The notes under the pieces were generated by a model, which was given only the letters and a program-made list of their open reading frames with translations, had not been told where the DNA came from and made no database searches. A stretch of 64,000 bases of DNA from Devosia geojensis (GTDB lineage Bacteria; Pseudomonadota; Alphaproteobacteria; Rhizobiales; Devosiaceae): the NCBI RefSeq assembly GCF_000969415.1, contig NZ_JZEX01000081.1:1-64000 (forward strand), read 5' to 3'. The first letter of the stretch is position 1. Each line of letters opens with the position of its first letter. Both the position numbers and the translations under genes were made by a program. Below are positions 4,356 to 45,648 of the stretch, piece after piece.

Positions 4356-5541
4356 TGGTCCGGCTCCGCAGGAAATGGCGCTTGGGGCGGATCTGCCCGC
4401 GGTCGGCGTCCATCAGCGAGATGAGGATGCCCTCGCGAAGCCCCCGGTCGGCGACGCGCACGCGCTCGGTCGGCCATTCGCGGCGGATCGCCTCGAAGAT
4501 GGCGCAGCCCGGCAGCACGAGGTCGGCGCGATCGCGCCCGATGCATGGGTGGGCCATGCGCCGTTCGAACGGCATGCCCAGCAGCGCGCGGATGAGCCCG
4601 TCCACCTCGCCCCGGCCAAGCCAGAGCCCGTCGACCTTCTGCCGCTCGTACCGCTCGAGTCCGAGGTGGAGCCCGGCGAGCGTCGTCACCGTTCCCGATG
4701 TGCCGATGAGATGGACCGAGTGGTTGGCGATCATCTGCTTCAATTTCTCGCGCCCGCGGAACTGGCGCAGGTGCCCCGAAACGAACGCCACCATAGCCTC
4801 GAACACCTCGGGCGTCACATCGACCCCTCCGAACTTCTCGGCGATGGAGACGACGCCGACCGGCAGCGATTGCCAGGAGCGGATGGAAGCGGGCATGCGG
4901 CCCTGGCTCTTGGGCCGCCCGCCGCGGAAATCGAGCCAGGCGAGTTCGGACGAGCCTCCGCCGATGTCGAACATCAAGGCGCCCTCGGCGCCTGCCTCGA
5001 TGAGGTCGGCGCAGCCGGTCACCGCCAGCTCGGCCTCGGTGCGCCGGTCGACAATCTCGAGCTCCAGCCCGAGTTCGCTCTTGACGCGCGTGAGGAACTC
5101 CGTCCCGTTCTCGGCGGAACGACAGGCTTCCGTGGCGATGAGGCGCATACGCGCCGGCTGGTGGTCGTTGAGCTTGACCGCGCAATGGCGAAGCGCCTCG
5201 AGGGTGCGGTCCATGGCGGCATCGCTGAGGCGGCCGGTGGTCGAGACCCCCTCGCCCAGCCGCACGATGCGGGTGAACCCGTCGAGCACGCGGAAGCCCT
5301 GCTCATGAGGGCGCGCGATGAGCAGACGGCAATTGTTGGTTCCCAGATCAAGTGCGGCATAGACCGGGCCGCGATGGCGCCGGGCTGGGCTGACGGCGTT
5401 GGCTGTCCGCCTCTCCGCCGGGTTCGGCCGGGATTGCCCCTGCCCGAAGCGCTGCCCCTGGTGAAGCTCGAGCCCACCCTGGGTGCGGAACGCCGTTTCG
5501 CCTCCCGGCGATTCGGCTGCGGACCGATTTTCATCGGTCAC
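4345..5541 (-). CDS. Ppx/GppA family exopolyphosphatase / pppGpp phosphatase
   Basis: A 398-residue ASKHA-fold phosphatase that removes terminal phosphates from polyphosphate or pppGpp. The first phosphate loop [14 protein letters not shown] begins near residue 63 and the second, [13 protein letters not shown], lies in mid-protein. [12 protein letters not shown] is the third conserved segment. The N-terminal 58 residues are hydrophilic and probably disordered. The protein lacks the long C-terminal HD-like half of E. coli Ppx, so it resembles the shorter GppA/Ppx2 type; sequence alone does not decide which substrate is preferred. It overlaps rlmE by 11 bases, suggesting a two-gene operon. Confidence 0.9.
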
Positions 5542-5785: not shown

Positions 5786-5859
5786 TGGGGAATAGTTCAA
5801 TGGTAGAACAGCGGACTCTGACTCCGTTAATCTTGGTTCGAATCCAGGTTCCCCAGCCA
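5786..5859 (+). tRNA. tRNA-Gln (anticodon CTG), prophage attachment gene
   Basis: The sequence folds as a complete tRNA: acceptor arms TGGGGAA (5786-5792) and TTCCCCA (5849-5855), discriminator G, encoded CCA (5857-5859), anticodon stem GCGGA/TCCGT with loop CTCTGAC, giving anticodon CTG, and T-loop TTCGAAT. The 3' part from 5815 is repeated exactly at 45602, so the functional tRNA is a chromosome-phage hybrid restored by the integrating element. Confidence 0.97.
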
Positions 5860-5861
5860 CT
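5815..5861 (+). repeat. attL core, 47-bp direct repeat
   Basis: Identical over 47 bases to 45602-45648. The core starts in the anticodon stem-loop region of tRNA-Gln and ends two bases past the encoded CCA. Beyond it the two flanks stay related but not identical (AAAATCAATAAGTTA here, AAAATCAATACGTTA outside attR), so the ancestral shared segment may extend further. Confidence 0.95.
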
Positions 5862-28433: not shown

Positions 28434-29123
28434 TTAAGTCCGGGGTTGAAGGAAGGCCGAGACTGCGTTGCGCAGGTTGGCCAGGTCGTTCGCCTTCACG
28501 CCCTCGGACTCGCTCCGAATGGCCTTCGCATAGCCGACAGAGGCGATCTGTACGGCCATGGCTTTGGGGACGCCTGCCTCGCGCAGGATGTCCTCGAATT
28601 CCTTGACGGGCATGGGCTCGCCATCGCGCAGCCGGCGGGCGAATTCCTCCATGCGTTCGGATTTGACGGCGGTGATCCGCGCCTTGTCGTTGGCCGGGAA
28701 CGTCACCGGGCTGATCTCCATGAGGTCGAGCTCGAGCAGCGTGCGGTTGTTGCCGTCCGGCTGGGCGCGCAGTTCGCGATAGCCGATGGAGAGGCCGCGG
28801 ATCGCCCCATTCTTCATGATGATGTGCGCCTCGTCGGCCTTCTGTACGCCCTTGAGCAACCGCCCGCGCCCGAACAGACCCTTGCTGTCCTCTTCGAGGC
28901 TTTCCCACACACCGATCGGGTAGTCGGGATTGTGCTGCCACAACATCAGCGGACTGGTCTTCGCCTTGGCATGTCGGGCCAGCGACTTGCTGAACGCGCC
29001 TGCCTCGACGACTTCGCCATAGCTGTCGACGTTGCCGAAGATGGAGCCATAGCCCTCAAAGGTGCCGTCATCCGAGAGGTTCTTCACCTCCAGGGCAAAA
29101 TCCTTGGTTTTCATGAGGATCAT
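28434..29123 (-). CDS. Prohead maturation protease, HK97/U35 family
   Basis: A 229-residue serine protease that clips capsid delta domains during head maturation. Family signatures: LSDDGTFEGYGSIFGNVDSY near residue 16, probable catalytic His in MLWQHNPDYPIG near residue 63, and Ser in IRGLSIGYRELRA near residue 110. The ATG at 29123 overlaps the portal stop codon (ATGA); a second ATG nine bases later is also possible. Confidence 0.93.
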   Translation of the reverse strand: MILMKTKDFALEVKNLSDDGTFEGYGSIFGNVDSYGEVVEAGAFSKSLARHAKAKTSPLMLWQHNPDYPIGVWESLEEDSKGLFGRGRLLKGVQKADEAHIIMKNGAIRGLSIGYRELRAQPDGNNRTLLELDLMEISPVTFPANDKARITAVKSERMEEFARRLRDGEPMPVKEFEDILREAGVPKAMAVQIASVGYAKAIRSESEGVKANDLANLRNAVSAFLQPRT

Positions 29124-30457
29124 TCCTTGCTTGGGTCGAACGGCGGGCCGCCGTTGTGCCCCATCCGAGTGCTCAGCCGTTGGTCGATGAGCGCGTCGAG
29201 ATCACGACCGAACAGAAGGTTCATCATCGCCGACCGCAATTGCTGCTCGCCCGACGATGCTTGTGCCTCCAGGCGATCCAGCGGGATGAGGTTGGACTGG
29301 ACGGTCAGGACGTCTCCACCCTCGGCAGGAGGCAGGTTCTCGCGGCGGCGCATTTCGTTGCGGGTCATCCAGCCGTTCTGGCCACCAGAGGCGTAGAGCG
29401 CCGCTCGTCCGGCACTGTCCGCCCGTAGCAGCCCCTCGAGGACGAACTCCGCATAGAGCGACATGCGTTCGCCGGGCTTGAGCAGTTGCTTCTTCACCGC
29501 CTGCTCGATCCGCACCAGGTACGGCCGCAGGCTGTAGGTCAGGAAGCCGGTATTCTGCTGCTCGAGGCCCGTGCCCCAGCTGGTCGAATTCTGGGAGTGG
29601 CCGACCATGAATGGCGGCACACGATAGATGCGGCAGACCTGCTCGACATTGAAGCCGCGCGTCTCGAGGAGCTGTGCGTCCTCCGGGTTCATGGTGAGTT
29701 GGACCCAGTCCCACCCCGTCGGCAGCGGCATCACCTTGCCGCTGGACTTCGACCCCATGAATTCGGCGAAGAGCTCCATCAGCTCCCGCCGCTGTTCAGT
29801 GGTCGATTTCCCGCCGGGCGCCTCCTTGGCGAAGCCGGCGATCTGCAGTCCACCCTCCATGAACTGGACGGCAGCTTCCTCGGCGGCGATCGATCCGCGC
29901 AGGGTCCGCCAGTTGTACTGGATCGGCGAGAGACCGACGTCACCGCCGAAGCCGAATCCCCGAACATGGAAGATTTTGCTGGCCGGCAGCATCTCCCTCC
30001 GGCCACGGTCGTTGACTGCGTAACGCAGGTTGCCGTTGGTATCGCGTGCGACCATCGTGGTCGGCGGCAGCGGTTCCAGCGCGACCAGGCGGTCGCCGAT
30101 GAATTTCTGCTCGGAGAACGCGTTGCCCCAGCCGCACAGGTGGGCAACCTGCCCCTCCCAGTATTCGGCCGCAGTCTGCCACGCATTGGGGCTGTCGTGC
30201 AGGAGACCGTAGAGCGGATGGTCAGATGCGAGCTCGCGCTTGTCCTGCGAAAGCTTGCGGTAGAGCGGCAACGGCAGCGTGCCGGTGGTTTCCGAGAGCA
30301 GCCGGATACAGGACCATGCCGTCGACAGCGCGAGCGAGCCATCGACCGTTGGACGAGCGGCGGCGCGGTTGACATAGGCCGCCAAGGTTTCCTTGCTGTC
30401 CCGACCCGAAATCTTCGGGTTCTGGGCCCAGCTGGCGATCCACCCAAACGGGTTCAT
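29120..30457 (-). CDS. Portal protein, HK97 family
   Basis: A 445-residue portal that forms the DNA entry vertex and docks the terminase. Landmarks: LALSTAWSCIRLLSETTGTL near residue 42, HDSPNAWQTAAEYWEGQVAH near residue 87, HVRGFGFGGDVGLSPIQYNW near residue 145, and RIYRVPPFMVGHSQNSTSWG near residue 275. The C-terminus ends STRMGHNGGPPFDPSKE. Overlaps terL by four bases on one side and the protease gene on the other, as expected for a packaging-head operon. Confidence 0.95.
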   Translation of the reverse strand: MNPFGWIASWAQNPKISGRDSKETLAAYVNRAAARPTVDGSLALSTAWSCIRLLSETTGTLPLPLYRKLSQDKRELASDHPLYGLLHDSPNAWQTAAEYWEGQVAHLCGWGNAFSEQKFIGDRLVALEPLPPTTMVARDTNGNLRYAVNDRGRREMLPASKIFHVRGFGFGGDVGLSPIQYNWRTLRGSIAAEEAAVQFMEGGLQIAGFAKEAPGGKSTTEQRRELMELFAEFMGSKSSGKVMPLPTGWDWVQLTMNPEDAQLLETRGFNVEQVCRIYRVPPFMVGHSQNSTSWGTGLEQQNTGFLTYSLRPYLVRIEQAVKKQLLKPGERMSLYAEFVLEGLLRADSAGRAALYASGGQNGWMTRNEMRRRENLPPAEGGDVLTVQSNLIPLDRLEAQASSGEQQLRSAMMNLLFGRDLDALIDQRLSTRMGHNGGPPFDPSKE

Positions 30458-32283
30458 GCCATCGCCCTCATGCTGGCGAGATAATCGCTGAGGTCCTCGC
30501 CGGCCTCAGTCGCCATACCCACCGCCGGTGCGATGGCGTTGATCAGCGCATCGATCCCGTCGATCTTGTTCGGGCTCATCTGGCTCTCCTTGATCGGAAG
30601 GAGCGTTTCGTCCCGGCGCCGACTGACGACGACATTCGAGGCCATCCAGTTCATCACCGGATTGCCGTCGTGCCGGAGCCGGTTGGGGCCGCCCTTGACG
30701 CGGGCCTCCAGCTCCTTGGCCGGATCGGTAACGGCAGCCGCCTTCTTGTGCAGGATCTCCGCCAAGGGCTCGTCTCCACTGCCATGGTTTTCGTTCAAGC
30801 GGCTGGCCATCGCCTGCGCCGCGGCGAACTGGTCGAAGGTGATGCGCCGGATGGCGTACTCCTCGATCCACTGCTCGACCTGCCGCTCGACCTCGTTGTG
30901 ATCGACCCAGTCGCCGGGCGTGAGGCGCAGGTGTCCCTGTTGATGCCAGCTGCGATAGGGAGCTGGCCCTCTACCCTCGGCGTGCAGTGGGTCCGCCAGC
31001 ACCGCCTCGGGGAGCCAGAACACGGGCTTGAAGATCAGCCTGTCATCGGCGTCGAAGGCGGCGAGCACCAGGGCGGTGATGTCGTCCTTGTCCGCGAGGT
31101 CACCGCCGATCCAGCAGTCGAGGTCCTTGAAGGCATCCCAGCTCAGTGCCGGGTCGGCACACTGCTTCCAGCGCGCCATATTGAGCCAGGCTGAATTGGC
31201 GTTGAGCCACCGGTTCAGGTTCTTGGTCAGGAAGTTGCCTTCGCTGCCCGGAGAGGCCTTCGCGTCCTTGGCCTCGTCGCGCAGGTATTTGAGGCTCGGC
31301 GTCACCCCTAGCATCGGGTTCGCCTTGATCCAGACCTTCTCGTCGAAGGGATCGTCGGCCGGCGTGATGACCTTGCCGTCATCATCCAGCACCTCGTCAT
31401 CGAGGGTGAAGATGATGCCGAAGAAGTGGTCGGCCTCGAATACCTCCTCGAGGACCTTGGTCAGGTAGGTGCGCTGCTCGTAGCAAACGCCGTTTGTGTT
31501 GAAGCCCGCCGTGGTGATGATCCACATCAGCGGGTTGGACCGGGCGCCGAACGCCGACTTGATGACGTCGAAGAGCCCGCGGTCCTTGTGGGCATGGAGC
31601 TCGTCGAGCACGCCCATATGCGGGTTGTGCCCGTCCTGCGTAGACCCCTTGGCGTTGATCGGCTGGACATACCCATAGTTGGCGGCGCAGGTGATTGATC
31701 GCGACCACGCAGTCACACCGAACGCGTCCTGCAGATCGTGGCTGCGACGCACCATCTTCTGCATCGGGCCGAAGACCTTCTTGGCCTGTTCTCCTGTGGT
31801 AGCGCCGACGATGACCTGGGGGCCTACTTCGTCCTCACAGGTCAGGCAGTACAATCCCACCCCCGCGGTCAGAGTCGACTTGGCGCCCTTACGCGCCATC
31901 TCGATGTAGACGTAGCTGAAGCGGCGCTTGCCATCCTCCCTTCTGCGCCACCCGAAGATCGTGGTGAGGATGAAGACCTGCGCCGGCTCGAGGAAAATCG
32001 TCGCCGTCTTCCATTGGCCCTCCACGTGGGGCAACTTCTCGATGAAATCGCACACATCGTCTGCGTGCCAGCAATCGAAGTAGAAGCCCCAGCGCTTGTC
32101 CAACGTAGACCGCTCGAGGTCACGGAGATGACGCCGGCACGCGAGTTTGACCCACTTGCACGCGACCACCCTGCCCGCAACGACGTCCCTAGCCCACTTC
32201 TCGGCAATGCCCGCATAGTCGCGGGCGCCGTGCCCCCTACTGCCTGCGGCCATTTCGGGCGAAGACATTCCCGGATTTGCCAC
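30454..32283 (-). CDS. Terminase large subunit (HK97-type, Terminase_1)
   Basis: A 609-residue packaging motor. The ATPase domain shows an A motif-like EMARKGAKSTLTAG near residue 131 and Walker B GVLDELHAHKDRG near residue 225. The RNase-H-like nuclease half begins with WIGGDLADKDDITALVLAAF near residue 392 and ends with an acidic region GIDALINAIAPAVGM. Cuts concatemeric DNA and pumps it into the prohead. The start region overlaps terS by up to 47 bases; ATG 32271 (MSSPEM) or 32253 are alternative starts. Confidence 0.95.
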   Translation of the reverse strand: MANPGMSSPEMAAGSRGHGARDYAGIAEKWARDVVAGRVVACKWVKLACRRHLRDLERSTLDKRWGFYFDCWHADDVCDFIEKLPHVEGQWKTATIFLEPAQVFILTTIFGWRRREDGKRRFSYVYIEMARKGAKSTLTAGVGLYCLTCEDEVGPQVIVGATTGEQAKKVFGPMQKMVRRSHDLQDAFGVTAWSRSITCAANYGYVQPINAKGSTQDGHNPHMGVLDELHAHKDRGLFDVIKSAFGARSNPLMWIITTAGFNTNGVCYEQRTYLTKVLEEVFEADHFFGIIFTLDDEVLDDDGKVITPADDPFDEKVWIKANPMLGVTPSLKYLRDEAKDAKASPGSEGNFLTKNLNRWLNANSAWLNMARWKQCADPALSWDAFKDLDCWIGGDLADKDDITALVLAAFDADDRLIFKPVFWLPEAVLADPLHAEGRGPAPYRSWHQQGHLRLTPGDWVDHNEVERQVEQWIEEYAIRRITFDQFAAAQAMASRLNENHGSGDEPLAEILHKKAAAVTDPAKELEARVKGGPNRLRHDGNPVMNWMASNVVVSRRRDETLLPIKESQMSPNKIDGIDALINAIAPAVGMATEAGEDLSDYLASMRAMA

Positions 32284-35608: not shown

Positions 35609-35851
35609 GATCTCCGGAGTGTTCCGGTGCGCCCCTATGGCACACGATCATGATGAACATGGAGTCCTCCTCAGAGGGGGCGAAATGAAGAAAGCCCGCC
35701 GAGGCGAGCCCACCGGCGCAGACTGCCAACGCAGCGAATTGGTACGCCGATTGGCCCGCCATCGCAACAACCCGACGGCTAATCCTAGCCTGGGGCGCAC
35801 TGTGCCGAACATATCAGGAACTTACCGATAATGGACTAGAACGTCAAGCGC

Positions 35852-37092: not shown

Positions 37093-37346
37093 GCTGCACC
37101 TGGTCCATTGCCGCGCGCGCTGAGGCGGTTGATTTCGTTCTGCACGGCCCAGGTGAAGGCCGAGACCTGACGTTCGATCTCGGCGGGGGCGAACCCCCGT
37201 CGACGCATCATCCATTCGAGAGTGGCGCAGGTGTCTCGCCAGTAGGTCGAGCGAGCCTTGTCCGTTCGCCGCCGAAGATAGATCTCGGCAACGTGACGAG
37301 CCTTTCCTACATTGCGCTCCTGAGGGAAGCAGATGAGCTCGGCCAT
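37089..37346 (-). CDS. DUF6074-like small phage protein
   Basis: An 85-residue protein. The opening AELICFPQERNVGKARHVAE and the later RSTYWRDTCATLEWMMRRRG and EIERQVSAFTWAVQNEI match the layout of DUF6074 ('..PFP..R..G..R..A......A..Y....'), a small helical family of Rhizobiales phages with unknown function. It starts on the last base of the replication gene's stop codon and overlaps the next gene by four bases. Confidence 0.65.
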   Translation of the reverse strand: MAELICFPQERNVGKARHVAEIYLRRRTDKARSTYWRDTCATLEWMMRRRGFAPAEIERQVSAFTWAVQNEINRLSARGNGPGAA

Positions 37347-37954
37347 CAGCGCCCCCCCTCTTCGAGGGCAACAGCTGCAGCGCCTGCACTAGCCGCTGCG
37401 TTCCGGCGCACAGGGGATATGGTATATCTAGATGTGTCCTTGAGGCCGGACGCTATTTCGGCGTTTTTCGCGACTTCAGTCCTTGAGGTCGGACGCAAAC
37501 GAGAATTTCCGGCGGTTAGGTCTTGTTGCGTCCTTGGGATCGGACTTGGTGTCCTTGAGATCGGACTAGGTTTTATTTTTTCTGGCCGCCAATGCGCGAA
37601 GTCCTTGGTAGCCTTGTGACCCGTGCGATCGTCCGGCAATTCCGTCAGAAGCCATTCGGTGGCTCGCCTACCGTTGGTGCTAAAGCCGCCGGGTGTAGCC
37701 GGCTCGATGAAACCGAGCGCTCGCAGTTTCTTAAACGCCCGGTTGGCTGTATCGGGCCCGACATTGATAGCCTTCGCAGCTTCGCGACAGCCGAGGCCAA
37801 TCATTCCATTGTTGTGCCCGTTGAAGCGCTCCCTCAGTTCCAGGTAGAGAGCGCGAGCTACGGGATCGAGCTCTCGCCAGGCGGGCGACTGCGTCACCCA
37901 CCGGAACAGTTGGACAAATGGCGGAGATTTCGAGCGACGACTTCTCCGACTCAT
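37346..37954 (-). CDS. Replication initiator-like protein with internal origin
   Basis: A 202-residue protein. The N-terminal half is a winged-helix region: SPAWRELDPVARALYLELRE, then NNGMIGLGCREAAKAINVGP with helix-turn-helix NRAFKKLRALGFIEPATPG. The C-terminal half is basic and Ser/Pro/Arg-rich (SPISRTPSPIPRTQQDLTAG) because it is encoded by iterons. This is the lambda O design: an initiator whose own gene carries the binding repeats and an AT-rich element. Start ATG 37954 overlaps the preceding stop (ATGA). No helicase loader (P) or helicase gene follows, so host DnaB loading might be direct, or one of the unknown neighbours does it. Confidence 0.75.
   Translation of the reverse strand: MSRRSRRSKSPPFVQLFRWVTQSPAWRELDPVARALYLELRERFNGHNNGMIGLGCREAAKAINVGPDTANRAFKKLRALGFIEPATPGGFSTNGRRATEWLLTELPDDRTGHKATKDFAHWRPEKIKPSPISRTPSPIPRTQQDLTAGNSRLRPTSRTEVAKNAEIASGLKDTSRYTISPVRRNAAASAGAAAVALEEGGR
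37436..37582. other. Candidate phage replication origin (four iterons + AT-rich stretch)
   Basis: Four 16-bp copies of GTCCTTGRGRYCGGAC: 37436-37451, 37479-37494, 37530-37545, 37551-37566, each with outer inverted GTCC/GGAC. Starts are 43, 51 and 21 bases apart, near whole helical turns. An A/T run (TTTTATTTTT, 37571-37582) follows at once. The whole set lies inside the initiator-like gene. This is the plan of lambdoid origins; assignment is by analogy. Confidence 0.75.
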
Positions 37955-38136
37955 TCTCGCCCCTCCCGTATGCGCTTTGCCTCGGCCATCGCTTTGACGG
38001 CATCGTTGAAGCCGAGGCCATAGCGTTCGCGTAGGAGGGCCGTTTGGGAGAGGAGGCGCACCTCCTCCCAATTGTCGGCGAGCCAGTTGGCCGCTGTCTT
38101 GATCGTGTCGAGTGACGGCGAGGCAATGCCTGTCAT
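37951..38136 (-). CDS. Small early phage protein
   Basis: A 61-residue protein, ATG 38136. MTGIASPSLDTIKTAANWLA is followed by LLSQTALLRERYGLGFNDAVKAMAEA-like helical sequence (LLSQTALLRERYGLGFNDAV). Four-base overlaps on both sides (ATGA) put it firmly in the early operon. No family is recognised. Confidence 0.55.
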   Translation of the reverse strand: MTGIASPSLDTIKTAANWLADNWEEVRLLSQTALLRERYGLGFNDAVKAMAEAKRIREGRE

Positions 38137-38366
38137 GCTTTGCCCCCGCCCGCTTGCTTCCAAGCTTCCTGGAGTGCTTCGATGATCTCCGGCAGCATCG
38201 TCAGCCGGACGTTGACGCCCGATTTGCCGGGCCGCATATCGCCGCCGTCGCGCGGATCGTAATAGACACGCACGGCGCACAGCCGATGACCCTGATATTC
38301 GGTCAAGCTGATCCGCAATTCCTCGTTGGCGTTCTTCGGGATCGTTGCGATGATCTGATCCGTCAT
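38133..38366 (-). CDS. PC4/p15-like ssDNA-binding transcription coactivator
   Basis: A 77-residue protein of the PC4 (p15) family. NEELRISLTEYQGHRLCAVR and PGKSGVNVRLTMLPEIIEAL are the diagnostic strand and helix of the single PC4 domain, which binds single-stranded DNA as a dimer and influences transcription. The Gly-Lys-x-Gly (GKSG) turn is intact. Start ATG 38366 is chosen by homology and by overlap with the upstream HTH gene; overlaps the next gene by four bases. In a replication operon it could protect ssDNA or assist early/late transcription. Confidence 0.88.
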   Translation of the reverse strand: MTDQIIATIPKNANEELRISLTEYQGHRLCAVRVYYDPRDGGDMRPGKSGVNVRLTMLPEIIEALQEAWKQAGGGKA

Positions 38367-38560
38367 GCAGCGTCCCCTTCGAACAGCTCCTCGAGCTTCT
38401 TGCGGGAGGCGACCCAACGGCCGCCGACCTTCTTCGCCGGCAGTTCCCCGTTTTCCAGCATGTGGAAAGTCTGGCGGCGGGTCCGGTTGAGGGCCGCAGC
38501 AATTGCTGTGGCGCCCCAGATCAGATCGAGCCTTTCGGGAACGGAACGATCAGATTCCAT
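38363..38560 (-). CDS. Excisionase/MerR-like winged-helix DNA-binding protein
   Basis: A 65-residue protein: MESDRSVPERLDLIWGATAI, then AAALNRTRRQTFHMLENGELP and AKKVGGRWVASRKKLEELFE. This is the winged-helix pattern of MerR/AlpA/Xis-type small regulators (helix GATAIAAALN, recognition helix RRQTFHMLENG, wing VGGRWVASR). It could be the excisionase or a cro-like regulator. Start ATG 38560; an upstream ATG at 38575 is also possible. It is the only Xis-like candidate in the prophage. Confidence 0.7.
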   Translation of the reverse strand: MESDRSVPERLDLIWGATAIAAALNRTRRQTFHMLENGELPAKKVGGRWVASRKKLEELFEGDAA

Positions 38561-38990
38561 CGTCGGGCTCTCCATGATCGGTGGGATCGTACTCGGCGTC
38601 GGTATCGCCACCCGCTGCCCAGCCGAGCTGGCTCAACTGGTTCGTGCGTACGTGAAAGCCAGACAGGTGCCCACCCAACCAGCTCTCCGGATCGCCCGAC
38701 ATCCGAAGCATCCCCGGAGGGCTTTTGGCCTCGGGTGTCGCCAGAGAGGGCTCACAATCCGCATTGTCCTCCTCGCGGTCGTCATCCAGGGATTGGGGAG
38801 CGCGCCCGAACTGCTGAGGTCCCAGCGCGGGCCAACCGAGAGAGGGCTCCAGATCGCCAGCCTCCTCAAGGTCTGGGTCTCCATCGAACTTGTCGAGCAG
38901 ACCGATCAGACGTTCAATCTCGGCTTCGATGGATCTGCGATCCGGGCGCGGGCAATTGGCAGCCCCCATTTTTGTGAGGTCGTTGTCCAT
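38550..38990 (-). CDS. Acidic phage early hypothetical protein
   Basis: A 146-residue, strongly acidic protein with a helical N-terminus (RRSIEAEIERLIGLLDKFDG) and long disordered Asp/Glu/Pro stretches (EEDNADCEPSLATPEAKSPP, GDTDAEYDPTDHGEPDDG). No family is recognised. Acidic phage early proteins sometimes mimic DNA or titrate host nucleases, but that is only a possibility. It follows two other small genes in the same operon. Confidence 0.5.
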   Translation of the reverse strand: MDNDLTKMGAANCPRPDRRSIEAEIERLIGLLDKFDGDPDLEEAGDLEPSLGWPALGPQQFGRAPQSLDDDREEDNADCEPSLATPEAKSPPGMLRMSGDPESWLGGHLSGFHVRTNQLSQLGWAAGGDTDAEYDPTDHGEPDDGI

Positions 38991-38992
38991 GC

Positions 38993-39307
38993 CTAAGCGC
39001 CCTCCCCTTCGAAGAGATAGGCGCGGGCATGCAACAACTCGGCGCGCTCACAAATGTTGCCGATGGCGAAGAGGATGTCCTCGATCGCGCTGTCGGCGAA
39101 ATTGAGGGTGCGGATACCGTTCTCTTTGTCGTGCCTAATGGCTCGATTGGTGCTGAGGGCTCGCTCGAGGGAGACCTCCAGGATGGAAGCCATCCGGGCC
39201 AGCTCCCACACATCTCCGAAATAGCGGGTACGCTCATCCCGGTTGTCGCCGGGCAACGCCGGCATTGTGATCGACGGACGTGCCGTGCTATTGGTTTGAG
39301 TGATCAT
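38993..39307 (-). CDS. Small helical phage early protein
   Basis: A 104-residue protein, ATG 39307 preceded by AAAGGAAAA. Helical segments: FGDVWELARMASILEVSLER near residue 30 and SAIEDILFAIGNICERAELL near residue 75. No family is recognised. Its start overlaps the end of the RHH gene upstream by 20 bases, so it is part of the same leftward operon driven from the switch region. Confidence 0.55.
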   Translation of the reverse strand: MITQTNSTARPSITMPALPGDNRDERTRYFGDVWELARMASILEVSLERALSTNRAIRHDKENGIRTLNFADSAIEDILFAIGNICERAELLHARAYLFEGEGA

Positions 39308-39506
39308 TGTCTTTTCCTTTGGAGGGGAGGACGTGTTCATGGCTCGGCGGAGTTGCAGCTCCGGCCGGGCCTTTTGCTTTCATGGCCCCGCGAATTGCGC
39401 GGACAATCTCGGAGTTTTGGGACGACGCGTTTTCAAGAGCTTCAGCTCGAATAAATGCCCGCGCATCAGGTGGAAGTCGAATTTTCAATTGGACCAACTC
39501 AGAAGG
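39288..39506 (-). CDS. Arc-type ribbon-helix-helix DNA-binding protein (leftward side of switch)
   Basis: A 72-residue RHH protein: MPSELVQLKIRLPPDARAFI, RAEALENASSQNSEIVRAIR, with the beta strand LVQLKIRLP and the helix pair typical of Arc/MetJ dimers. It starts at ATG 39506 (alternatives 39527 and 39545 are in frame). It reads away from three operator-like repeats and a divergent RHH gene, so it is the first gene of the leftward early operon and probably a repressor or Cro-like switch protein. Confidence 0.75.
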   Translation of the reverse strand, partial: PSELVQLKIRLPPDARAFIRAEALENASSQNSEIVRAIRGAMKAKGPAGAATPPSHEHVLPSKGKDNDHSNQ

Positions 39507-39530
39507 CATAAATGGCTCCTTAACCATAGC

Positions 39531-39587
39531 ACCTAATAGGTTCATATGTACCTACTAGGTTCATATAGCGTCAAGGACCTAATTGGT
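39531..39587. promoter_or_regulatory. Divergent operator region with three CCTANTAGG-type sites
   Basis: ACCTAATAGGT (39531-39541), ACCTACTAGGT (39550-39560) and ACCTAATTGGT (39577-39587). The first two are part of a 19-bp direct repeat ending TTCATAT. Each core is a near-palindrome, as bound by RHH dimers, and the sites lie between two divergent RHH genes. This is the presumed lysis-lysogeny control region. Confidence 0.8.
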
Positions 39588-39618
39588 TTATCCACGCTCG
39601 AAATACGGAGAGCACCCC

Positions 39619-40140
39619 ATGGCGCAACCCAAGCAGACAGATCCCCAGTTCAAGCTTCGTTTGACGCCCGACCTGAAGGCCCAGATCGAGGGCGCGGCGC
39701 AGCAAAACAACCGCTCGATGAACGCCGAGATCGTTGCGCGGCTTGAAAGTAGCTTCCAGCAGGACACTGCAGCGCTCCGAGAAGCCACCCTAGTCGCTGA
39801 GTCTCTGCGGAAAAATCTCACTGAGAAAATCGAGAACTACGACAAACTGTTATCGTCTCTTACGAAGAGAACTCAAATTCTAGATAAGAGGGAAGCAGCG
39901 TTGGATGAACGGGAATTTGAGCTATCGATGGAGATAGACAATAAGCTCGCGGAGCGGGAGCATGAGCTTGAGAAGGAATATGAAGCACTCATGGAGAGAG
40001 CCCGACAGCGGTGGGAGCAGGCCGATGAGTATGCTGGATTTACGATCGCAAGAGAGCGCCAGTTTATCGAAACGATTAAAGCTCTTACAGGAAAGGAGCC
40101 GCCACCAGCTGAACCTGTGCCACCAACACGTAAGAAATAA
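39619..40140 (+). CDS. Arc-type RHH protein with long coiled coil (rightward side of switch)
   Basis: A 173-residue protein. Residues 1-45 are an RHH domain (QFKLRLTPDLKAQIEGAAQQ, NNRSMNAEIVARLESSFQ). About 85 residues of continuous helical coiled coil follow (LTEKIENYDKLLSSLTKRTQ ... EREHELEKEYEALMERARQR), then a short basic/proline tail. The coiled coil could oligomerise the repressor across multiple operators. It starts at ATG 39619 (MAQPKQTD) with GGAG upstream and reads away from the operator cluster, opposite to the other RHH gene. Candidate lysogeny repressor. Confidence 0.8.
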   Translation: MAQPKQTDPQFKLRLTPDLKAQIEGAAQQNNRSMNAEIVARLESSFQQDTAALREATLVAESLRKNLTEKIENYDKLLSSLTKRTQILDKREAALDEREFELSMEIDNKLAEREHELEKEYEALMERARQRWEQADEYAGFTIARERQFIETIKALTGKEPPPAEPVPPTRKK

Positions 40141-40492: not shown

Positions 40493-40969
40493 ATGCGATT
40501 TGCTGGAAACGTTATCTGGTTTGTCTTGGGCGGAGCGGTCACCGGGCTGATCTGGCTCATAGGCGCGGCAGTCTTCGCCGTAACGATCATCGGACTGCCG
40601 CTGACCCGCGCGGCGGTCGAAATGGCCAAGATGTCCGCGTTCCCATTCGGGAAGGAGGTCGTTCACATCCGGGAGCTCGATGCTCGTGAGTTGGATGCGA
40701 CAACGGCTGTAACAGGAGCTGTCGGCTTCATCTTCAACGTGCTGTGGGCTCTGACCTTTGGCCTGCTGCTGTTCGTTGCCTACCTGATCTCAGGTATACT
40801 GTGCTGTTTGACAATCATCGGCATTCCGTTCGGCCTGCAGGCATTCAAGCTTGCCGGTCTCTCCTTATGGCCCGTCGGTCGTCGTGTTGTACCAATTGAG
40901 CTCGCCCAAGCCGCTCGAGAGGCAAACGCTCAGGATCGCCTGGCGGCGTATCGACGGCGCCCGGCATGA
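40493..40969 (+). CDS. YccF-family inner membrane protein
   Basis: A 158-residue protein of the YccF/DUF307 family: RFAGNVIWFVLGGAVTGLIW near the start, a first TM pair, WALTFGLLLFVAYLISGILC as the second, and the conserved TIIGIPFGLQAFKLAGLSLW PVGRR segments (split at residues about 105-130). Function is unknown; membrane protein of many proteobacteria. The ATG at 40493 is supported by GAGGGGG; the open frame upstream is not needed. It overlaps the next gene by four bases, suggesting a two-gene operon. Confidence 0.85.
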   Translation: MRFAGNVIWFVLGGAVTGLIWLIGAAVFAVTIIGLPLTRAAVEMAKMSAFPFGKEVVHIRELDARELDATTAVTGAVGFIFNVLWALTFGLLLFVAYLISGILCCLTIIGIPFGLQAFKLAGLSLWPVGRRVVPIELAQAAREANAQDRLAAYRRRPA

Positions 40970-42276: not shown

Positions 42277-42915
42277 CTACTTATCCTCCCACTCGATGTA
42301 GAGCTCGCCGCCGAGGGCGTCGACTGCATCATAAAAGTTCGGGTTCCTCGTACCGTAGCGCCTAATGGAGCTCTGGGTTAAAAATCTGCGCGCTCCGACC
42401 ACTCGGTAGAGTTCGTTCAAAGACACCCCTATCTCCTCACATCTTTGCTGAATATCCCGCACTATTGGGAGATCAGGCGTCTTTCTTCGGTCGGTGACGC
42501 GCAGCATCCTATGTTTTCGCCGCAGTGTCGCGATAGCTTGCTCCGTGCGGCCTGCAAACTGCGATGCAATTTGTGCATCTGTATGATCAGCCATGAGTAG
42601 CCGGATACGCTGGAGATCTGCCCCTTTCCAAACCCGCCTTGGCTTCGCACATCCCAACACAGATGCTCGGAGCATAATGGTGTCCCGAGTTTTGTCAGGC
42701 AGCAACTTGATCAGCAAATCGATGTCTGGGTAGTGATCTCGTATAAGTTGATCTTCTCCTTCGTGCCATCTCCTGGAAGGTGCAATACCGAGCGACGATG
42801 CCCGGCGCTTAATGGCAGCGACCGAGCGGTCCAGATGCAGCTTGCAAATCTCTACGTTTGGATAGAACCTTTGAAGCACTCGATCTTCGTCAGGCTGCCA
42901 CCGCCTTATTTTCAT
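42277..42915 (-). CDS. Myb/SANT-like repeat protein with shared C-terminal domain (copy A)
   Basis: A 212-residue protein. Three Myb/SANT-like helical repeats fill residues 1-135: RRWQPDEDRVLQRFYPNVEI, RRWHEGEDQLIRDHYPDIDL, RRVWKGADLQRIRLLMADHT, each followed by a helix with a spaced K/R-x-A motif (AAIKRRASSLGI and equivalents). A C-terminal domain (about 140-210) has IVRDIQQRCEEIGVSLNELY and NPNFYDAVDALGGELYIEW, an HTH-like fold that is shared with the neighbouring gene. Overlaps that gene by 26 bases. Possible regulators or DNA-remodelling proteins; function unknown. Confidence 0.65.
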   Translation of the reverse strand: MKIRRWQPDEDRVLQRFYPNVEICKLHLDRSVAAIKRRASSLGIAPSRRWHEGEDQLIRDHYPDIDLLIKLLPDKTRDTIMLRASVLGCAKPRRVWKGADLQRIRLLMADHTDAQIASQFAGRTEQAIATLRRKHRMLRVTDRRKTPDLPIVRDIQQRCEEIGVSLNELYRVVGARRFLTQSSIRRYGTRNPNFYDAVDALGGELYIEWEDK

Positions 42916-43546
42916 ATCCCCTCCTTTTCGGCGGCCGGCGGCGAAGATTTGGATTCGGCGTACCCGTCCATTTCGATCGCAGGTTTCCCCCTAGAAACGC
43001 GACAGCTCGGAAATGCGCCGTGTGGTCAAGACGGCCATGCTTCCACTTCCTTTTGGAAAAGTAGCCTTTACGCTTCGCCTCCTGATCCAGTTCGATCATC
43101 GAGACGTTGCGCTCTCGGGCCCGTTCGAGGATTTGATCCAGTACTCGGTTGCCCGTGGGTTTGAGCGGTCTCGGCGCTCGATAGATGCCGCGCGAGTTGG
43201 CTGCCTTGGCAATTGCCGCCCAGGTACGATCTGGAAAAGCCGCTATGATTTCTTCCCGCGTGCCCCGCGGATAGACCTTTCGAAGGCGAAGAATTTCGTT
43301 ATCAGTCCAAGGGCGGCCGCGAGCCTTTGTAAGTCCCATCCGACCGGCCTTGCTGTAGGTTGCCGGCCTAGAACGGGCCCAGGGCTCCGCAAAAATCATA
43401 TGGTAGTGCGGATGGAGGTTCTCCACCCGCCCCGTTTCGGGCGGTCGCCAAAGAGGATGGCCGTTCGGCGTCACACCACGTAGCTGCATCAGCCGCCGCA
43501 TCCGCTCGGCCGTGGCAGCCCCTCTTGCATGCCAGGATAGCTTCAT
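42890..43546 (-). CDS. Myb/SANT-like protein with shared C-terminal domain (copy B)
   Basis: A 218-residue protein paralogous to the next gene. An Arg-rich N-terminus (KLSWHARGAATAERMRRLMQ) leads to one Myb/SANT-like repeat, RPWTDNEILRLRKVYPRGTR EEIIAAFPDRTWAAIAKAAN (residues about 80-115). The C-terminal domain, VLDQILERARERNVSMIELD and HTAHFRAVAFLGGNLRSKW, aligns with the domain of the first copy (GVSLNELY / LGGELYIEW). ATG 43546 is preceded by GGAGAG. It reads away from the RelE/Xre promoter region, so the intergenic 43547-43697 drives both. Confidence 0.65.
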   Translation of the reverse strand: MKLSWHARGAATAERMRRLMQLRGVTPNGHPLWRPPETGRVENLHPHYHMIFAEPWARSRPATYSKAGRMGLTKARGRPWTDNEILRLRKVYPRGTREEIIAAFPDRTWAAIAKAANSRGIYRAPRPLKPTGNRVLDQILERARERNVSMIELDQEAKRKGYFSKRKWKHGRLDHTAHFRAVAFLGGNLRSKWTGTPNPNLRRRPPKRRGYENKAVAA

Positions 43547-43672: not shown

Positions 43673-43687
43673 TAACCCGATGGGTTA
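43673..43687. promoter_or_regulatory. Operator-like palindrome before the toxin-antitoxin genes
   Basis: TAACCC-GAT-GGGTTA is an inverted repeat (six-base arms) 10 bases before the RelE start, in the position expected for autoregulation by the Xre antitoxin and its toxin complex. Confidence 0.7.
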
Positions 43688-43697
43688 CATATCCACC

Positions 43698-44039
43698 ATG
43701 CAGACCGTTGCCGAGACCCCGACGTTCATTAAGCAAGCGGCGGGGCTTTTCTCAGAAGACGAGAAGGCAGCGCTGATCGACTACCTCGCGTCCAATCCGC
43801 TTGCCGGCGATGAAATCCCTGGCGCAGGCGGCGTCCGCAAGGTGCGGTTTGCGGTGCGTGGGAAAGGCAAGCGCGGCGGCGCCAGGGTGATTTACTACTG
43901 GTACAGCGACGATGCGCCGATCTACGCCCTGCTCGTTTACGGCAAGAACCAGAAGACCGATCTGACGCCAGATGAAGCGGCGGCGGTCGGAGCCTTCGCC
44001 AAGGCCATCAAGGCCGCGTACAGGAGCAAGTCACGATGA
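43698..44039 (+). CDS. RelE/HigB-type toxin
   Basis: A 113-residue toxin of the RelE superfamily (PF06296-like). The fold is visible: ETPTFIKQAAGLFSEDEKAA, EIPGAGGVRKVRFAVRGKGK RGGARVIYYWYSDDAPIYAL with strands and KNQKTDLTPDEAAAVGAFAK as the C-terminal helix. The basic residues K and R in strand three and the final Lys are typical of mRNA interferases. Start ATG 43698 lies after the operator palindrome; the antitoxin gene overlaps the end by four bases (ATGA). Predicted ribosome-dependent or free mRNA cleavage. Confidence 0.85.
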   Translation: MQTVAETPTFIKQAAGLFSEDEKAALIDYLASNPLAGDEIPGAGGVRKVRFAVRGKGKRGGARVIYYWYSDDAPIYALLVYGKNQKTDLTPDEAAAVGAFAKAIKAAYRSKSR

Positions 44040-44341
44040 CCAAGTTTGGTGACGATCTCATCGCCTCTATGACCGAGGCGCTCGCCCATGCACGGGGCGA
44101 GAACGTGCCCGGCATCGTTGTTCACGAGATCGATGTCGACAATATCGATCCGAAGGAAATCCGCCTTCACCTGGGGCTCACGCAGGAGCGGATGGCACAG
44201 GTGATGGGCACCAGTCTTTCCGGCTATCGGAAGTGGGAACAGCAGCAGCGCACACCTAGCGGTGCGGCGCGGACCCTGCTCCGCGTCATGGCCAAAGAAC
44301 CCGAAGCGGTTCTTCGAGCGCTCGCGGACGAGGCGGCCTAA
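44036..44341 (+). CDS. Xre-type antitoxin (HigA/NadS-like)
   Basis: A 101-residue protein. An N-terminal region with DDLIASMTEALAHARGENVP precedes an Xre helix-turn-helix, DPKEIRLHLGLTQERMAQVM GTSLSGYRKWEQQQRTPSGA (about residues 37-78). The order toxin first, antitoxin second, and this HTH form match HigBA-like modules in which the antitoxin represses its own promoter. It ends three bases before the integrase start, so both could share the transcript. Confidence 0.85.
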   Translation: MTKFGDDLIASMTEALAHARGENVPGIVVHEIDVDNIDPKEIRLHLGLTQERMAQVMGTSLSGYRKWEQQQRTPSGAARTLLRVMAKEPEAVLRALADEAA

Positions 44342-44344
44342 ACC

Positions 44345-45553
44345 GTGTCCGTTCGGAAACGCCGCTGGACGAACGCCAAGGGCGAGACCAAGGAGGTCTG
44401 GCAGGTCGACTATGTCGACACTAACGGCGACCGACGCAGGCAATCCTTCGCCAAGAAGAAGGATGCCGATGCCTTTCATGCCAGGGCTACCGTCGAGGTC
44501 AGCCAGGGCGTTCACGTCCCTGATAGTGCGACCATTACAATAGAGGAAGCAGGCAAGCTCTGGATCAAATCGGGCACCGCGGCCGGCCTCGAGCGGACCA
44601 GTCTCGATCAACGGCGACAGCACCTGGAGCTTCACATCAAGCCATTCATCGGGAAGACGAAGCTTTCCAAGGTGACGGTGCCTTTCGTCCGCTCGTTTCA
44701 GGACATGCTTCGTGAAGCCGGTCGCTCGGCCGCCATGATCAAACGGGTGGCCGTTAGCCTCGGCAGCATCCTCTCGGATGCTCAGGGGCGCGGCTTGGTT
44801 GTGCGGAACGCCGTTCACGAAATGTCGCGGGCCCGCTCTGGCCAAAAGAAGGCGGAGCGCCGGCAAAAGGCGAAGCTGCGCGTTGGCGTCGACATCCCCA
44901 CAAATACAGAGATCCGAGCCATCATCGGAGCTGCAGCCGGGCGTTACCGACCGCTCCTCATCACCGCGGTCTTCACTGGCCTGCGCGCCTCGGAATTGCG
45001 AGGTCTCCGATGGGAAGACGTTGATCTGGGTAAAGCACAACTCCACGTCCGACAGCGCGCCGACAAGTACCAGGACATGGGCATGCCCAAGTCGGACGCC
45101 GGACAGCGCACGATCCCCCTCCCTCCGATGGTGGTAAGCACGCTCAGAGAATGGAAGCTCGCCGGCCCGAAGAGCGATCTCGGTCTCGTTTTCGCCAATC
45201 AGGCGGGAAGGATCGAATACCATCAGAACATGCTCCAGCGCGGGCTTTGGCCGACGCTGCTCAACGCCCACGTGGCCGTGGCCACCGGCAAGAAAGACGA
45301 AGAAGGCAATCTGGTACTGGCGCCCAAGTACACCGGCTTTCACGCCCTGCGACACTGGTACGCGTCGTGGTGCATCAACCGCAAAGTCGATGGCGGCCTC
45401 GAACTGACACCAAAGCAGGTGCAGGAACGCATGGGGCATTCAAGCATTCAGGTCACGTTCGATACCTACGGGCACCTCTTTCCTTCCGTCGACGAAACGC
45501 GGGAACTCGAGGCTGCCCAGTTGGCGCTACTTGGCGGAACTGCTGGCACATAG
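44345..45553 (+). CDS. Tyrosine site-specific integrase
   Basis: A 402-residue phage integrase. Start GTG 44345 lies three bases after the antitoxin stop. Arm-binding/core-binding segments cover residues 1-160 (WTNAKGETKEVWQVDYVDTN; LDQRRQHLELHIKPFIGKTK). The catalytic domain has R214 (GLRASELRGL), K249 (KSDAGQRTIP), H333-x-x-R336 (HALRHWYAS), H365 (MGHSS) and nucleophile Y375 (FDTYGHLFP). It reads toward attR, 49 bases from the core. Recombines attP with the tRNA-Gln attB. Close relatives are XerD-like prophage integrases of Rhizobiales. Confidence 0.95.
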   Translation: MSVRKRRWTNAKGETKEVWQVDYVDTNGDRRRQSFAKKKDADAFHARATVEVSQGVHVPDSATITIEEAGKLWIKSGTAAGLERTSLDQRRQHLELHIKPFIGKTKLSKVTVPFVRSFQDMLREAGRSAAMIKRVAVSLGSILSDAQGRGLVVRNAVHEMSRARSGQKKAERRQKAKLRVGVDIPTNTEIRAIIGAAAGRYRPLLITAVFTGLRASELRGLRWEDVDLGKAQLHVRQRADKYQDMGMPKSDAGQRTIPLPPMVVSTLREWKLAGPKSDLGLVFANQAGRIEYHQNMLQRGLWPTLLNAHVAVATGKKDEEGNLVLAPKYTGFHALRHWYASWCINRKVDGGLELTPKQVQERMGHSSIQVTFDTYGHLFPSVDETRELEAAQLALLGGTAGT

Positions 45554-45601: not shown

Positions 45602-45648
45602 ACTCTGACTCCGTTAATCTTGGTTCGAATCCAGGTTCCCCAGCCACT
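45602..45648 (+). repeat. attR core, 47-bp direct repeat
   Basis: Identical to 5815-5861 and including the tRNA 3' end and CCA, but without the 5' half of the gene, so this is a tRNA remnant, not a tRNA. It marks the right end of the prophage. Confidence 0.95.

Follow-up and report, generated by a model that had tools for sequence, protein, structure and literature searches.

We propose that the immunity region of a prophage in Devosia geojensis is a switch resembling the OR region of phage lambda, in which two ribbon-helix-helix (RHH) proteins, here called LEFT and RIGHT, replace CI and Cro. We consider this reading likely, with the reservation that all of the evidence is computational, with data on neither binding nor expression. 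What the computation shows is the architecture, the sites, the association of residues with bases and the synteny. A first-pass annotation had suggested a lysis-lysogeny switch made of two RHH proteins; the comparative evidence supports that suggestion with amendments, binding and control being inferred.

The window analysed here is a stretch of 64,000 nucleotides (contig NZ_JZEX01000081.1, positions 1 to 64,000). Two divergent Arc-family RHH genes lie at 39.5 kb, in a prophage flanked by copies of a 47-bp tRNA-Gln repeat at 5815 and 45602. RIGHT is oriented toward the integrase, and LEFT is the first gene of a leftward operon, behind which come an excisionase-like HTH_17 gene, a weakly replication-like gene and then the head genes:

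5815..5861, plus strand: att repeat, copy 1, at the 3' end of the tRNA-Gln gene (tRNA 5786-5859)
29120..30457, minus strand: portal protein (phrog_12, E 8.5e-105)
30454..32283, minus strand: terminase large subunit (phrog_9, E 2.4e-156)
37346..38071, minus strand: replication-initiator-like early-operon gene, a weak match (phrog O-like, E 0.045)
38363..38611, minus strand: HTH_17/AlpA-like protein, excisionase candidate (HTH_17 E 8e-4, below the Pfam cut-off; phrog excisionase E 0.011)
38993..39307, minus strand: small gene after LEFT, no family
39288..39509, minus strand: LEFT, short Arc-family RHH protein, 73 aa (Pfam Arc 21.7 bits, E 1.8e-4)
39619..40140, plus strand: RIGHT, Arc-family RHH protein, 173 aa (Pfam Arc 44.7 bits, E 1.2e-11)
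43680..44039, plus strand: RelE-family toxin (PF06296, 32.7 bits, above the cut-off)
44036..44341, plus strand: XRE (HTH_3) protein, probable antitoxin (sole HTH_3 match on the contig at a threshold of E 0.01)
44345..45553, plus strand: tyrosine integrase (phrog_1 E 6.6e-57; Pfam Phage_integrase E 7.8e-16)
45602..45648, plus strand: att repeat, copy 2, 47 bp

Other genes on this side of the prophage include one for a YccF inner-membrane domain protein (40493-40969, plus strand; PF03733, 115 bits) behind RIGHT in the lysogeny region, which might conceivably be a superinfection factor. Two overlapping genes at 42277-43546 (minus strand), Myb/SANT-like by eye, match phrog_323 ‘transcriptional regulator, D5-like’, and an adjacent pair similar to them is found in one relative (L094).

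Both RHH proteins are members of the Arc family by profile match, each exceeding the curated cut-off of Pfam Arc (PF03869, 20.4 bits), and on this point the first-pass annotation, which had described two divergent Arc-like RHH proteins, held. The length of LEFT is corrected to 73 aa (39288-39509) from 85 aa; its start is most likely the ATG at 39509, since AAGGAG precedes it and the N-termini of the nearest relatives match. Neither a tblastn search of LEFT against phages (no match at E 0.01) nor a search of IMG/VR with LEFT found a relative. In the AlphaFold model of RIGHT (pLDDT of at least 90 at 119 of 173 residues), the RHH is followed by a single predicted helix of 124 residues (residues 34-157), in keeping with the long coiled coil claimed for this protein in the first pass; that the coiled coil could bridge operators remains conjecture. 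The top Foldseek matches of the model were AmrZ and Arc, with probability 1.00 but E values of only 0.035 and above, and several antitoxins ranked below them. The RHH strand was left unassigned by DSSP in this monomer model.

Between the two genes lie three 11-bp odd-centred palindromes, starting at 39531, 39550 and 39577, together with a predicted promoter for LEFT:

39531..39541: operator O1, ACCTAATAGGT, at the predicted LEFT transcript start; layout conserved, no binding data
39545..39550, minus strand: weak candidate -10, TACATA, with an 18-bp spacer and 3/6 to consensus (inferred)
39550..39560: operator O2, ACCTACTAGGT, within the spacer that separates -35 and -10 in the predicted LEFT promoter; no binding data
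39569..39574, minus strand: predicted -35 of the LEFT promoter, TTGACG; TTGAC is conserved between O2 and O3
39577..39587: operator O3, ACCTAATTGGT, asymmetric variant adjoining the LEFT -35, on the RIGHT side; no binding data

O1 and O2 are 19 bp apart, within a direct repeat. With one mismatch allowed, the operator pattern has nine matches in the window, six of which are O1-O3 on both strands, and none of 100 shuffles of the window reached nine; the earlier description of three sites, two of them in a 19-bp direct repeat, held. We found no second operator region, as only three single one-mismatch matches occur elsewhere in the window (chance mean 1.58). One of these three, an ACC-N5-GGT resembling O3, lies inside the start of the integrase gene (44387-44397, minus strand), at chance level. 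A strict sigma-70 promoter scan found no promoter. LexA control was considered and rejected: GTTC-N7-GTTC occurs once in the window, at 35807, with 1.8 expected by chance.

The arrangement recurs well beyond this prophage. Among 201 genomes, its own included, LEFT relatives were found in 15 and RIGHT relatives in 24, many of them facing each other. Further loci were added from the order, from named genomes (the best 80 of 242 confirmed) and from IMG/VR (10 loci plus the best 80 of 473 confirmed). At 169 of the 223 fetched loci with an Arc-type RHH there is a divergent RHH partner, a count that omits loci superseded by longer copies as well as the phage records L067 and L068; it should be noted that the 223 loci are redundant and were collected through RHH similarity. 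The first-pass annotation had called a two-RHH switch unusual, and as a statement of frequency this failed, divergent pairs being common among the fetched relatives.

Once regions containing N or longer than 260 bp had been dropped and identical ones merged, 172 pairs gave 141 intergenic regions. Palindromes with a 1-bp centre had a mean score of 6.44 in these regions, compared with 2.46 in shuffles. Gaps of 0, 2 and 4 gave means near the shuffle level (2.6-2.7), and a gap of 3, which is the 1-bp centre with the arms one base further out, gave 5.77. Repeated 1-bp-centre palindromes beat all 40 dinucleotide shuffles in 101 of the 141 regions (40 do not), and exactly three sites are present in 93 (48 differ). 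A score of at least 6 was reached by 97/141 RHH intergenic regions as against 5/846 random windows of the same loci and 1/30 divergent non-RHH intergenic regions. A comparison of operator conservation in related prophages had been proposed in the first pass; by these counts, repeated palindromes do recur across relatives.

From these loci, representatives were chosen at less than 70% RIGHT identity, 105 of 135 being kept, with six rows dropped (duplicates of longer loci; one locus gave two). Spacing, O3 and the -35 were counted in the 64 loci that have three sites and a shuffle fraction of up to 0.03, a limit that excludes, for example, L183 of the ACCTA class. The O1-O2 spacing is 15-35 bp, with one outlier at 60. 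For O2-O3 there are two clusters of spacings, 22-27 bp and 34-37 bp, with one locus at 42 bp, and the clusters are separated by roughly one turn of the helix. In 54 of the 64 loci the stretch between O2 and O3 contains a leftward-reading TTGAC, compared with a mean of 1.0 and a maximum of 4 over 200 rounds of shuffled spacers. It is naturally taken as the LEFT -35, which would place O2 in the promoter spacer and O1 at the transcript start; the -10 elements are weak. In the ACCT class (11/64 loci, some closely related), position 8 is A in all 22 O1 and O2 sites and T in all 11 O3 sites (11/11 versus 0/22, Fisher P 5e-9). Since this position differs consistently, we regard O3 as a distinct site. 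OR3 is likewise a distinct site in lambda.

If these palindromes are operators, their half-sites might be expected to follow the residues predicted to touch DNA, and such an association is shown, the contact itself being inferred. The contact positions come from the structure of Arc, and we take them to be the first and third residues of the strand motif that leads up to the invariant Arg; in P22 Arc the strand motif residues are Q, N and R. Our code table covers 74 of the 105 representatives, namely those whose palindromes beat all 40 shuffles. QxKxR goes with half-site ACC in 28/28 cases, QxR with CCC in 10/11, QxN with A[GT]C in 6/6, PxG with T[TA]C in 6/6, KxV or KxI (KxV/IxR) with GGC in 9/9 and RxM with GCC in 2/2, and 12 further combinations of residues and bases occur once each. 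Residue 2 and base 1 share 1.55 bits of information, against at most 0.59 in 3000 permutations. In addition, the LEFT and RIGHT proteins of a locus agree in the second contact residue in 47/105 representatives (permuted fraction: mean 0.152, largest 0.267) and in both contact residues in 42/105 (mean 0.137, largest 0.238). The P22 operator core, AGAAGCACTCT, has the AG of the first two bases of the QN class and a different third base, and P22 Arc itself carries Q and N. These classes of contact residues partly reflect descent, and relatedness was only partly removed: clustering at 60% RHH identity leaves only eight clusters, with QK-ACC holding in all three that contain it.

RHH proteins beside repeated sites also occur in other contexts, and two of these can be largely set aside. 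The first is a locus for partition or replicon maintenance, with RHH proteins on iterated centromere sites (ParG/omega type). In its favour, repeated sites adjoin the RHH genes and two PHROG families matching RIGHT are labelled ‘partition protein ATPase’, a label also found on Mnt in phage records. Against it, there is no ParA-type ATPase among the scanned neighbours in the window, the element is integrated between att repeats, and the sites overlie a predicted promoter. The second is a type II toxin-antitoxin module, in which an RHH antitoxin would bind sites for its own regulation. Antitoxins are common among RHH proteins, and several appear in the Foldseek list for RIGHT. However, the two RHH genes face each other, and the window genes adjoining either of them match no toxin family: the gene after LEFT (38993..39307) has no Pfam match at E 0.001 and no PHROG match at E 0.0001, and the gene after RIGHT is YccF. 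Across the representatives (104 genes after LEFT and 98 after RIGHT scanned from 105; the rest had no ORF, and one very long ORF was omitted), a toxin-antitoxin toxin family is matched after RIGHT in only 1/98, and in the window the likely toxin-antitoxin pair is RelE/XRE, about 3.5 kb away. Because partner genes are lacking among the window genes scanned, we reject both explanations as very unlikely.

A more serious alternative is that the RHH pair is an accessory module like immI of phage P22, controlling a subset of genes as Mnt and Arc control ant, and that lysogeny is maintained by another repressor, such as the XRE protein at 44036. P22 immI is itself a secondary, dispensable region beside a separate primary region, immC (PMC11016777), and an XRE protein is present here. 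Moreover, many relatives have a gene of an antirepressor family behind LEFT: of the 104 genes scanned at this place in the wide set, 32 match antirepressor phrog_130, and 18, 17 and 15 match Pfam ANT, Phage_pRha and Bro-N, possibly overlapping. Because of this, many of the pairs in the wide set may indeed be immI-like accessories. For the window, however, we consider this explanation unlikely, for three reasons.

First, no Ant, KilA, BRO or Rha antirepressor was found among the window genes scanned, which did not include every small frame, and few such genes were counted among near relatives. At the 20 near-relative loci we scanned 102 LEFT-side genes (L096 contributing none) and 79 RIGHT-side genes of the relatives, with RHH genes excluded and one window gene added to each set; the home-made gene caller used misses some small genes. 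Of the antirepressor families tallied, ANT, pRha and ORF6N each match one of the 102 LEFT-side genes.

Second, the pair sits between the integrase and the excisionase/replication side. Relatives of the HTH_17 gene at 38363-38611 lie on the LEFT side in 7/20 loci, and relatives of the replication-initiator-like gene (37346..38071) were found in 3/20. Integrase relatives of the window type lie on the RIGHT side in 8/20, and another integrase type, typed by eye and family tally, lies there on the opposite strand in 4/20. By family, HTH_17 matches nine and integrase two of the 102 LEFT-side genes; among the 80 RIGHT-side genes scanned, the window's included, integrase matches 15 and HTH_3 two. An integrase directly behind LEFT, opposite to the usual side, was seen in 8/104 of the wide set.

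Third, the XRE gene stands directly behind a RelE-family toxin gene, which it overlaps by four bases, an arrangement that makes the protein most simply an antitoxin. RelE-XRE order and overlap of this kind are those of HigBA-type pairs. We infer that the protein has no role in immunity, even though its gene is located between the RHH switch and the integrase. The RelE/XRE candidate pair as a whole (43680-44341) lies directly upstream of the integrase, about 3.5 kb from the RHH pair.

The first-pass annotation had seen no CI- or Cro-like HTH repressor in the prophage and had named a CI-like repressor elsewhere, controlling the early operon, as an observation that would refute the switch. The former claim held in part, in that no S24-type repressor is found on the prophage contig but one XRE (HTH_3) and one HTH_17 protein are present. 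As to the latter, the search of the contig for a CI-like repressor yielded no S24 protein and a lone HTH_3 match (44153-44263) in what resembles the antitoxin of a RelE pair; the two S24 matches of this genome at E 0.01 lie on other contigs (C29 and C168, not C191). Among 21 genomes with a pair, no Peptidase S24 protein lies within 10 kb of it, the nearest being about 14 kb away (G032), although some contigs are short, with several pairs close to an end. A search for HTH_3, which covered 14 of these 21 genomes, placed such a protein within 20 kb of a pair in at least two at E up to 8e-5: the window's own genome and G013, where the protein is about 1.2 kb from the RHH pair. In G043, a CI-like HTH_3/S24 protein lies about 31 kb from the pair.

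A further conserved element was found within LEFT itself:

39341..39371, minus strand: conserved bulged RNA hairpin in the last codons of LEFT, with covariation in 14 loci

The hairpin has a stem with one bulged base and a loop of 4-6 nt, and the set consists of the window and 13 of the 20 relatives. Across these 14 loci, 94% of cells pair, with changes on both sides in 8/12 pairs, and the covariation score is 0.489, whereas shuffles give 0.151 and no slid version exceeds 0.093. Some caution is needed here: the paired columns were chosen after the sequences had been inspected, one pair fails in 6/14 loci, and the number of further pair types is not unusual (reached by 120/500 shuffles). The C-terminal tail of LEFT (KGPA..A.SPSH) is similar in most near relatives. 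The covariance model matches the window with 64.3 bits at 39334-39375, the window sequence being itself part of the model.

Among 121 genomes, the model has 17 matches of at least 45 bits, of which 11 are its own sequences, in Arc-type LEFT genes. Five of the six new ones (G019, G022, G040, G065 and G072) lie in a second type of small gene, and the sixth (G006) lies in a 44-aa frame without a second-type gene. In the five second-type loci (L261, L262, L267, L274 and L275, respectively) the hairpin is in the leftward gene, and in four of the five the gene faces a similar protein. By eye, the order of strand, helix, turn and helix gives the second type an RHH-like look, but Pfam does not recognise it as RHH (best RHH_1, E 0.15); its AlphaFold model is of low confidence (mean pLDDT 68.3), with the strand region modelled as helix, and 7/8 of the proteins match phrog_4738 ‘transcriptional repressor’. 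When the model was run on 89 of 168 loci (L069-L078 and L099-L256; named genomes and IMG/VR), matches of at least 33 bits were found in seven, two in Arc-type genes (L078 and L146) and five in other small early frames. One locus, from an Oricola MAG (L148), has two matches about 370 bp apart (5304-5346 and 4934-4968, minus strand).

No known RNA family accounts for the hairpin, as Rfam has no match there and only one chance-level match elsewhere, and a scan for an intrinsic terminator there was negative; the hairpin also lacks a T run. In lying where the Cro-like gene of an early transcript ends, the hairpin is reminiscent of the put sites of HK022 and the nut sites of lambda (PMC9378689). A role of the hairpin in antitermination is possible, but it is no more than a guess by analogy with those sites.

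Based on this analysis, we can present a proposal for how the lambda-OR-like switch would work, in which binding, the assignment of proteins to sites, the direction of control, the route of induction and coiled-coil bridging are all inferred. RIGHT, in the place of CI on the integrase side, would be made in the lysogen and occupy O1 and O2. These two sites lie over the start and the -35/-10 spacer of the predicted LEFT promoter, and RIGHT bound there would silence LEFT together with the excisionase-like gene and the early genes that follow. LEFT would be a Cro-like early repressor, predicted to read the same half-site as RIGHT; from O3, adjoining the RIGHT gene, it would shut off RIGHT at the onset of lytic growth. 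As O3 differs at one base in each counted ACCT-class locus, one protein could prefer the sites in the reverse order of the other. Each operator shows the spacing seen in Arc/Mnt operators (two trinucleotides 5 bp apart) and so probably holds two dimers. Phages appear to change immunity type by altering two beta-strand residues of the repressors along with the operators.

A bolder reading, which we would neither press nor dismiss, is that the two-RHH unit is a separate and widespread class of primary immunity, with three shared operators, a two-residue code and, in one host group, a modular hairpin. Under this reading, immunity types would be predictable from sequence by way of the code, and the retention of the hairpin where a second type of repressor pair replaces the Arc pair would fit a cis-acting signal for antitermination or processing of the early transcript. 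RHH specificity has been studied on few proteins. The loci collected here provide about a hundred natural matched sets of two repressors and repeated operators (101/141 regions beat all shuffles), which makes a recognition code for a beta-sheet reader directly testable. The code predicts which phages have common immunity and could supply orthogonal repressor/operator sets for circuit design, and the switch raises the question of what induces a lysogen whose repressor is not RecA-cleavable.

Several known phages bear on the proposal. In the open-access literature that we searched, outside which most subscription papers lie, we found no account of a primary switch of two RHH proteins with shared operators. 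A similar layout is seen in Acetobacter phage phiAX1, where a divergent pair of genes, each annotated as an Arc type repressor, is accompanied by three exact 13-bp palindromes, TACCA-N3-TGGTA, with GTCAA before the third; the phage differs in having a KilA-N gene second behind LEFT. phiAX1 was sequenced together with five other phages in work on induction by mitomycin C; PHAST called it incomplete, and the discussion there is of XRE proteins of phiAP1 and apparently not of the Arc-type pair of phiAX1 (PMC8566455). In E. coli phage TL-2011b, an Arc-like gene and a gene facing it are accompanied by Ant and by three CCCAC-type sites, two of them with two mismatches. Pf prophages carry Arc/Mnt-domain genes of unknown role (PMC7549136), and the coliphages named mEpimmI, despite that name, have a CI-like HTH/S24 repressor (PMC11893012).

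The first-pass annotation had cited P22 Arc as a precedent, which held but was understated, as P22 immI is already a divergent RHH pair. Like the window, immI combines an Arc-family pair (mnt/arc) with odd-centred operators, and a TTGACA in the mnt/arc gap is the -35 of the arc promoter. Mnt, the longer repressor, has a C-terminal coiled coil. However, the P22 record has one Arc operator and one Mnt operator, unlike in sequence, overlapping promoters, and ant; its gap has no repeated operator set (best score 4, one site), whereas in the window a single operator occurs three times, with no ant among the genes scanned and no CI found. With lambda OR, the window shares divergent repressors, three related operators of which one differs, a CI-like gene on the integrase side and a Cro-like gene heading the early operon. 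It differs from OR in having RHH folds instead of HTH and no second operator cluster found in the window, and as the repressors have no S24 domain, RecA-driven self-cleavage is not expected. Of lambda-type immunity, the three operators and the matched contact residues are present in the window, and their sharing is inferred without binding data. Because defining features of each system were tested and proved absent, we conclude that the locus belongs to neither the lambda nor the P22 immI system.
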